Source of the DNA: Candidatus Parcubacteria bacterium
Lineage (GTDB): Bacteria; Patescibacteriota; Patescibacteriia; UBA1558; GWA2-36-10
Length of the DNA: 35,609 nt
Reading direction: 5' to 3'
Assembly: GCA_002869235.1 (NCBI GenBank)
Contig: PKTI01000027.1
Coordinates: forward strand, 1 to 35,609
The notes under the pieces: model-generated
Database searches by the model: none
The model's input: only the letters and a program-made list of their open reading frames with translations
Told to the model about the DNA's origin: nothing
Shown here: positions 23,033 through 25,019 of the stretch, piece after piece
Numbering within the stretch: the stretch's first letter is position 1
How the letters are laid out: each line of letters starts with the position of its first letter
Position numbers and translations under genes: made by a program

Positions 23033-24138
23033 GCACAGATAACAACAAATTATTAACCTTAATCTTGATCCTGCTAATTACTATGGCGGGATTGATTTAT
23101 ATTTGGTTAAATTTTGAAAACAAAAACTTTTTGACTACAAAAATATGGGTAGCCAAAGAATATGTTACTCCAAAAACTTTTTTTTCCAGACCTCCTGAAG
23201 AAAAGAAAGAATCCAATTGGCTTTTCTTTGGTGATTTGATGTTGGATAGAAATGTAGGGGCTACTATCAAAGAAAATGGCTTGAATTATATATTCAGCAA
23301 TATAATTTCTGAAAAAGAATATTTTTTTGAGGGTTATGATATTGTTTCGGCCAACCTCGAAGGAGCTGTCACAAAAGATGGAGAGCATTATGCGCCAGAT
23401 GTAATATATGATTTTGCTTTTTCCCCAGAGTTGATAAAAAAACTAAATCAAGATTATAATTTTAATTTTTTTACTATTGCCAACAACCATGTCACTGACC
23501 AAGGCACCACTGGCTTTCAAGAAACTAGAATAAATTTGGATAATCTAAATATAGACCATGTCGGTTGCCCAGATGCCCAAGTAGAGGAGTGCAACAAAAA
23601 AATATTGGACAAAGGAGATTATACTCTAGGTATGTTGGGTTATAGTATGGTCTATCATATGCTAGATAGTCAAAATGCTATAAAGCAAGTACAGGAAATG
23701 GCTTCATCTACTGACTTTGTGATAGTAAATATTCATTGGGGCGTGGAATATGAACATCAATTCAACAAAATACAGCAAAATCTAGCCCATGATTTTATAG
23801 ACGCTGGTGCTGACATTATTATTGGCCATCACCCTCACGTAGTCCAAGGTATGGAAATATACAAAGAAAAACCTATATTTTATTCATTGGGCAACTTTGT
23901 TTTTGATCAATATTTCTCTCTAGACACCCAAGAAGAGCTAGCTGTAAAAATAAATTATCAAAAAAATAAAATAGACTTAGAATTAATACCCTTAAAATCA
24001 AAAGCTAGCCAAATCAGACTAATGAATGAAGAAGAAAAACAAGAATTTTTGAATAAATTTTTCCTTTGGTCTCAAGCAAAAGAGGATTATCATGAACAAA
24101 TTATTTCTGGTAATATTAGCCTAAAAATAAATAAATAG
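23029..24138 (+). CDS. capA: CapA family poly-gamma-glutamate synthesis/metallophosphatase-like protein
   Basis: A type II membrane protein: one N-terminal helix (about residues 8-27), then an extracytoplasmic PGA_cap domain with calcineurin-like motifs FFGDLMLDRNVG (about 66-77), VSANLEGAV (about 107-115), ANNHVTDQG (about 151-159), IVNIHWGVEYEH (about 232-243), GHHPHVVQGME (about 263-273) and YSLGNFVFDQYFS (about 284-296). Family members anchor or export poly-gamma-glutamate, but many are in genomes without capBC, so the true role may be different. Co-translated with the M23 peptidase. Confidence 0.88.
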   Translation: MSTDNNKLLTLILILLITMAGLIYIWLNFENKNFLTTKIWVAKEYVTPKTFFSRPPEEKKESNWLFFGDLMLDRNVGATIKENGLNYIFSNIISEKEYFFEGYDIVSANLEGAVTKDGEHYAPDVIYDFAFSPELIKKLNQDYNFNFFTIANNHVTDQGTTGFQETRINLDNLNIDHVGCPDAQVEECNKKILDKGDYTLGMLGYSMVYHMLDSQNAIKQVQEMASSTDFVIVNIHWGVEYEHQFNKIQQNLAHDFIDAGADIIIGHHPHVVQGMEIYKEKPIFYSLGNFVFDQYFSLDTQEELAVKINYQKNKIDLELIPLKSKASQIRLMNEEEKQEFLNKFFLWSQAKEDYHEQIISGNISLKINK

Positions 24139-24158: not shown

Positions 24159-24187
24159 TTGACAAATAACTATATGTGTGCTATAGT
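24159..24187 (+). promoter_or_regulatory. Strong promoter of the RNA at 24194
   Basis: TTGACA (24159-24164), 17-bp spacer, TATAGT (24182-24187). Confidence 0.85.
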
Positions 24188-24193
24188 GTCATA

Positions 24194-24416
24194 TGATGCT
24201 TTAAGCACATTCAGATTGATGATGGAGGTTTCTCCAGTTAAGGACAGTTCAAGTGATTCTGCGAATCAACGCCTGATAGGCAACCCAACTTGAACATCCT
24301 TGACCCACGGGGTTTCTTCTTTCATCAAAATCCTCCTCGGGCAGAGGCGTAAACATCGGAGGTGCCAACCACCACAAGGATGTGTAGCAGGGTACGATAA
24401 CCCCTGCTTTCTTTTT
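24194..24416 (+). ncRNA. Putative multi-branched structured RNA, about 220 nt
   Basis: It has its own consensus promoter and terminator. Helices seen: GGAG-GTTT-CTCC (24224-24235 region). GTTCAAG (24247-24253) with CTTGAAC (24289-24295) encloses TGATTC (24254-24259)/GAATCA (24263-24268) and GCCT (24271-24274)/AGGC (24278-24281), a multi-way junction. CATCCTT (24295-24301) with AAGGATG (24376-24382) encloses CCC-ACG-GGG and CCTCC (24332-24336)/GGAGG (24358-24362). Ends in the terminator at 24386. This many nested perfect helices is not chance-like. No family recognised: it lacks RNase P, tmRNA and SRP signatures. The minus-strand ORFs across it are judged shadows. It is convergent with the SD-led membrane gene at 24500-24919. 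Confidence 0.65.
24386..24416 (+). terminator. Terminator of the RNA at 24194
   Basis: AGCAGGG (24386-24392) with CCCTGCT (24402-24408), then TTTCTTTTT. Confidence 0.8.
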
Positions 24417-24499: not shown

Positions 24500-24919
24500 T
24501 TAATTAGAACCATTGCGCTTGTTGAGGTAGAGACGTTTTTCAATCCTAGAAGCCACATAGACAACACAGACAAAGAACAGGTTGTCAAAAGTAGCCCGAG
24601 GAATCTGATAACGTCCATTACCAAAAGCGGCAACAACGTGAATCAACAGGGCATACAAAGCCCAGAGATACACAAACGTTCCGCCCTTTTTCCTCGGCAA
24701 AGCCTTGTGCGCCCAACGAGCGCTAGCTCTGACAACCGTGTAGGTCACCAGAACCACAAGGTAATACACCGGGAAAGTCGGCGGAATGGTGATAGGAATC
24801 GGAAACTCAAAGAATTTCCAGGTGATCAGCACCATCTGGGCGATCATCCAAGCAAAGCACAGCCAGAAGAGGTAATACCTAATCTGCTTGTGCACCTTAT
24901 TGTTGTTTCTGTTCCTCAT
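24500..24919 (-). CDS. Hypothetical 4-TM membrane protein, SD-led, 139 aa
   Basis: A very basic N-terminus (RNRNNNKVHKQIR) leads into four hydrophobic segments (about residues 15-38, 46-64, 82-102, 110-127) and ends in a basic tail. No family recognised. The start at 24919 is fixed by an extended SD, GAAAGGAAGGTGA, 5 nt upstream. The longer frame to 25000 is rejected, because it would place the SD and a leader hairpin inside the coding region. Leader: CTTTGGCA/TGCCAAAG hairpin at 24947-24966. GC content and codons (CGG/CGT, GTG, GCC) are like the 197-aa gene at 2364 and unlike the flanking capA and xer genes. Promoter weak (24991-25019). Confidence 0.68.
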   Translation of the reverse strand: MRNRNNNKVHKQIRYYLFWLCFAWMIAQMVLITWKFFEFPIPITIPPTFPVYYLVVLVTYTVVRASARWAHKALPRKKGGTFVYLWALYALLIHVVAAFGNGRYQIPRATFDNLFFVCVVYVASRIEKRLYLNKRNGSN

Positions 24920-24924
24920 TTTGC

Positions 24925-24937
24925 TCACCTTCCTTTC
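24925..24937 (-). promoter_or_regulatory. Extended SD site of the 139-aa gene
   Basis: GAAAGGAAGGTGA on the minus strand, 5 nt before the ATG at 24919. Same GAAAGG..GGTGA form as at 2964-2975. Confidence 0.75.
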
Positions 24938-24946
24938 AGGATGTAG

Positions 24947-24966
24947 CTTTGGCACTATTGCCAAAG
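24947..24966 (-). promoter_or_regulatory. Leader hairpin upstream of the 139-aa gene
   Basis: CTTTGGCA (24947-24954), 4-nt loop, TGCCAAAG (24959-24966). It has no T-tract on the minus strand, so it is not a terminator; it may protect or regulate the leader. Confidence 0.5.
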
Positions 24967-24990
24967 GCCTAGGTGTGGGGTTGGTGAGGA

Positions 24991-25019
24991 AGAATACCAA
25001 AAAATCAATACAGGCTAAA
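24991..25019 (-). promoter_or_regulatory. Possible promoter of the 139-aa gene
   Basis: On the minus strand: TTTAGC (25014-25019), 17-bp spacer, TATTCT (24991-24996). Poor -35, so tentative. Confidence 0.3.

Follow-up and report, generated by a model that had tools for sequence, protein, structure and literature searches.

The window, that is the whole stretch of 35,609 nucleotides from a Candidatus Parcubacteria genome (G000) that was analysed, contains a gap of 361 nt between the end of capA at position 24138 and the end of a membrane ORF on the minus strand. A previous reading made from the letters alone (the sequence-only reading) had proposed that this gap holds no coding sequence but a structured RNA with a consensus promoter and a terminator, higher in GC than its neighbours, and our analysis agrees with most of this. 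The longest ATG ORF in sense direction within the gap has 24 amino acids and is not kept in the homologue from G001, the one with which it was compared. The promoter matches the consensus closely and the terminator can be recognized both in the sequence and in the fold (Table 1), a simple scan having overlooked it because its loop comprises 9 nt. Only half of the claim about base composition holds, as the GC content of the RNA (0.47) is above that of capA (0.32) and of the window (0.36) but equals that of the downstream membrane ORF (0.47), so that the contrast is one-sided and no special mark of the RNA.

Table 1: Features of the RNA unit and its surroundings, with positions in the window.
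Feature	Position	Strand	Remarks
RNA unit, promoter to terminator	24159-24416	+
Sigma-70-type promoter TTGACA-17-TATAGT with TG extended -10	24159-24187	+	11/12 consensus bases
Structured RNA transcript, 223 nt	24194-24416	+	putative start, placed from the -10 box
P1, possible closing helix, 5' strand GCACAUUC	24205-24212	+	partner strand in the minimum-energy fold at about 24378-24385
P2, long bulged arm with apical helices	24216-24330	+	inner helix GUUCAAGU/ACUUGAAC, compensatory changes in G001
P3, small hairpin CCUC-loop-GAGG	24333-24348	+	by eye, outside the covariance model
Conserved 3' module: P4 (ACAUC/GAUGU) enclosing P5 (GGUG/CACC), ACAAGG between	24352-24384	+	includes ACAAGGAUGU (24374-24383)
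Intrinsic terminator GCAGGGUACGAUAACCCCUGC-UUUCUUUUU, conserved loop UACGAUAA, then U-run	about 24388-24416	+	sequence and fold
Small membrane protein gene	24500-25000	-
Palindrome TTAGCTAATATTAGCCAA	25200-25217

In order to find relatives of the RNA, 53 genomes were searched by BLAST, which gave two of them. A covariance model (R1) made from the sequences of the window and of G005 was then applied to 36 genomes of the order and matched once each in G001 (E 1.5e-13), G012 (4.8e-8) and G017 (2.2e-6). For the 3' module a covariance model identified homologues in four relatives with E values from 2e-24 to 2e-6. The refined model R2 was used on 380 genomes of the class and showed strong matches only in the same five genomes and no convincing new member; those of its weaker matches that were inspected proved to be terminators of other genes or to lie inside ORFs. 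The homologues, which the sequence-only reading had suggested to seek downstream of capA, share one chromosomal slot, with the RNA following capA or an M23 peptidase gene and pointing at a convergent Xer-type recombinase gene, although in G012 other genes intervene between the RNA and the recombinase gene. Inspection of this slot in 17 members of the family revealed nine (the window and eight relatives) in which the TTGACA is perfect, the spacer has 17 nt and a folded transcript of 185–256 nt is predicted (z from -2.5 to -5.6). In the remaining members the slot is empty or occupied by small protein genes, and the RNA is absent from it in G004 and G014, both rated 100% complete. Five of the nine slot RNAs possess the 3' module according to the model and G016 has a readable variant of it. 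Those of G008, G019 and G020 resemble the others in their position, their promoter and their foldedness (z -4.5 to -5.6) but have neither the 3' module nor much sequence similarity, and they may be unrelated.

The surroundings of the slot are themselves variable. The small genes between capA or the M23 gene and XerC differ from species to species, the small membrane protein gene of the window having relatives in the same slot of G007 and G012 but not of G001. The palindrome TTAGCTAATATTAGCCAA adjoins the Xer-type recombinase gene at its 3' end, with near copies at the same place in G007, G008, G014, G016, G017 and G019, and is possibly a Xer recombination site or another binding site. In G005, G017 and G016 (L077, L073 and L085) the upstream M23 gene has a terminator hairpin that includes the TTGACA of the RNA promoter, one short element both ending this gene and starting the RNA. 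The terminator loop UACGAUAA was also considered as a mark of the family, which is weakened by the loop UACGAAAA in terminators of other genes from two distant class members (L050 1561-1584 and L051 1553-1576); the likeness of the two loops perhaps reflects a common terminator-loop preference.

The plus strand folds with -75.4 kcal/mol (z -4.35, 0/200 shuffles as good) and the minus strand less strongly (z -2.64). The feature noticed before is real, but what had been described as at least six nested perfect helices is rather one long bulged arm, two to three small hairpins and the terminator. Pairing similar to P1 is predicted in G001, G012 and G017 but not in G005. P1 and P4 compete for one strand, with P1 favoured in G000 and P4 in G001, G005, G012 and G017 according to the predictions, so that it is uncertain whether a helix links the 5' end with the 3' module. 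Counterparts of P3 could be read by eye in G005 (CUCUCC/GGAGAG) and G017 (UCCCGC/GCGGGA). No conserved stretch is longer than ACA[AC]GGAUGUG. A pseudoknot between the apex of the arm and the stretch after P3 (ACGCCU/AGGCGU) would, from inspection by eye, be possible in G000 and G001 and has a counterpart in G012 (GUGCCC/GGGCGC), but it was not seen in G005 or G017 and we do not claim it. In the complete genome G017 a simple scan revealed 26 intergenic promoter–terminator units, several of them folded equally strongly. The promoter–terminator units L150 and L111 of this genome (minus strand at about 1011947 and 233291, 285 and 208 nt, z -5.5 and -9.0) gave tRNAs as their only gathering-level Rfam matches. 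Structured sRNA-like units are therefore not rare in these genomes, and it is its conservation that sets the RNA described here apart.

Compensatory substitutions are present in the homologues. In an alignment of five sequences, which was fitted to its own structure and shares two of them with R1, six of the 15 pairs in the 3' module are changed on both sides (0/500 shuffles) and 98.6% of the cells are paired, compared with 32–59% with slid partners. All four pairs of P5 vary with changes on both sides, and two terminator pairs do likewise. P4 is invariant in the five sequences, while in G016 one of its pairs would be C-G instead of the A-U found elsewhere; as there is hardly any variation in the ACAUC and GGAUGU strands, P4 is backed by this one compensatory change only, and the minimum-energy fold of G016 does not contain P4. 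The long arm, too, shows compensatory changes, at three adjacent pairs between G000 and G001. A MAFFT alignment of the six P4–P5 modules was too poor for use. Since there are few related sequences (six), the covariation rests on few events, and the support that it lends to the 3' module is good but not overwhelming.

Regarding the identity of the RNA, Rfam 15 gave no match in the window at gathering or permissive thresholds and chance-level matches only at ten homologous loci. Neither of the two outcomes by which the sequence-only reading would have been refuted, an Rfam hit to a known class or a lack of compensatory substitutions, was observed. The sequence features generally expected from a bacterial intergenic sRNA gene were found, namely its own promoter, a terminator, a conserved structure and no conserved ORF. 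Of the two proposals of the sequence-only reading, a new family or a diverged housekeeping RNA, the first is supported for one bacterial family, and the comparison points to an sRNA family that is new and lineage-specific but of a known general kind, in the Komeilibacteria (Patescibacteria). Regulatory RNAs of Patescibacteria were not described in what a shallow search of the literature gave. From the sequences promoter, terminator, lack of a conserved ORF, synteny and a compensated 3' module are established, and we infer that the RNA is transcribed and acts in trans. A regulatory RNA that docks to a protein seems the most likely general mechanism, and we lean towards a free-standing non-coding RNA gene of this type, in which a module is presented to a protein and the long arm is mainly a scaffold. 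Such a gene would be inherited in its one slot, behind either capA or the gene of the M23 peptidase, within one family of the Patescibacteria, its own strong promoter starting and its own terminator ending an sRNA of about 220 nt. The conserved 3' module would be the part offered to the protein, with its helix P4, its hairpin P5 and the intervening strand ACA[AC]GG, which is invariant, and the fast-changing arm would mainly hold this module in place. In species that possess CsrA, this protein would be the best single candidate for the partner, leading but unproven.

CsrA was considered because ACAAGGAUGU within the 3' module matches the SELEX consensus RUACARGGAUGU of CsrA, in which ACA and GGA are invariant and GU nearly so and whose ligands carry the GGA in a loop with AC/GU as its closing pairs (PMC7652899). 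A more specific reading is that the hairpin AC-A[AC]GGAN-GU captures the CsrA dimer and so titrates the protein off mRNAs, similar to CsrB, RsmZ or McaS, which we regard as rather unlikely. The ACA-N-GGA-N-GU core is present in all six carriers of the 3' module and absent from the three other slot RNAs. CsrA genes above the Pfam cut-off are rare and occur in only five of the 36 genomes of the order, all five with a slot RNA (p = 0.03, uncorrected for relatedness). Motif and CsrA are found together in G000, G005 and G017, that is in three of the five CsrA genomes and three of the six carriers, but G019 and G020 have CsrA without the motif and G012 (96% complete) has the motif without a detectable CsrA, as have G001 (84%) and G016 (69%). 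The association between motif and CsrA is not significant (Fisher p = 0.28). Furthermore, GGA is not enriched, with 2–7 copies per RNA being about the shuffled expectation (4 against 4.6 expected in G000), the GGA site is mostly paired in the predicted folds with a cost of 0.7–9.4 kcal/mol for the CsrA-type hairpin, and the likeness to the consensus was noticed after the fact. As in CsrB, CsrC, RsmZ and McaS there is a stand-alone sRNA with a terminator, an ACA-N-GGA-N-GU in a possible hairpin and, in three of the six carriers, CsrA in the genome, but the RNA differs from them by one conserved site instead of many (CsrB has 22 GGA; PMC7652899), by the unenriched GGA, by the site being mostly paired in the predictions and by the missing Rfam match. 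A single-site CsrA binder gated by structure, with P4 hiding the GGA site and an alternative hairpin exposing it, is a version that we consider unlikely. The csrA gene of G000 is cut by a contig end (L045, start of G000:C3), and csrA neighbourhoods differ between G000, G005, G017 and G019/G020. For ultra-small groundwater microbes csrA has been reported to belong to the highly expressed genes (PMC9938205).

Alternatively, the RNA might pair by exposed segments with mRNAs elsewhere in the genome, as do the base-pairing antisense RNAs that represent the commonest class of bacterial sRNA. Short exposed stretches are indeed available before P4 (GCGUAAAC) and in the terminator loop (UACGAUAA). The first, however, varies among the homologues (GCGUAAAC, GCGUUAC, GCGCUUAC and ACGCCAAC), a loop similar to the second occurs in the unrelated mRNA terminators of L050 and L051 from two other genomes, and the most conserved part of the RNA is structured and has no free seed, which makes this explanation rather unlikely as well.

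A diverged RNase P, tmRNA, SRP or 6S RNA, the second proposal of the sequence-only reading, is very improbable, even if the RNA is syntenic and has a strong promoter and the searches of G000 itself gave no RNase P, SRP or 6S RNA. RNase P RNA lies at other places in 31 of the 36 genomes, among them each of the eight relatives with a slot RNA, and its absence from G000 is thus most likely an assembly gap. The RNA shares with bacterial RNase P RNA that it is a structured RNA gene, but RF00010 and RF00011 do not match here and the conserved core strings are missing. It has no tRNA-like ends with a tag ORF, and an ordinary tmRNA is located at G000:C4. With 6S RNA it has in common a length of about 200 nt and a long bulged arm, but it differs by the lack of a match to RF00013 and of a clear central bubble and by extra hairpins between arm and terminator. 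SRP RNA was rejected as neither RF00169 nor RF01854 matched and no helix-8 motif was present. As the sequence-only reading had stated, none of these signatures is recognizable: models failed to match also at the homologous loci, and the RNase P, SRP and tmRNA strings are found in 0/9 slot RNAs. The slots without RNA in G004 and G014, rated 100% complete, also argue against a housekeeping function. 6S and SRP RNA are excluded only through models and motifs, neither RNA having been located elsewhere in these genomes and an SRP motif search of the complete genome G017 having given no convincing place. That a short mRNA or leader is made for the tiny ORF MC[SCG]RVR with its stop in the terminator loop is hardly credible, since despite a six-amino-acid ORF (ATGTGY...GTRCGATAA) in G000, G001 and G012 and small protein genes in the slot of other species, frame or sequence are lost in G005, G016 and G017, a spaced ribosome-binding site is missing and the compensatory changes track helices and not codons.

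Returning to the protein-docking RNA, the locus adds to the Patescibacteria a predicted sRNA that is conserved, structured and family-specific and whose 3' module is clear. Should it control CsrA, regulation by Csr sRNAs would extend past the established groups into genome-reduced bacteria, and if a CsrA from the CPR binds the RNA, post-transcriptional control by a protein-titrating RNA would reach minimal genomes. If CsrA does not bind, the 3' module would still be a defined bait for an RNA-binding protein in Patescibacteria.
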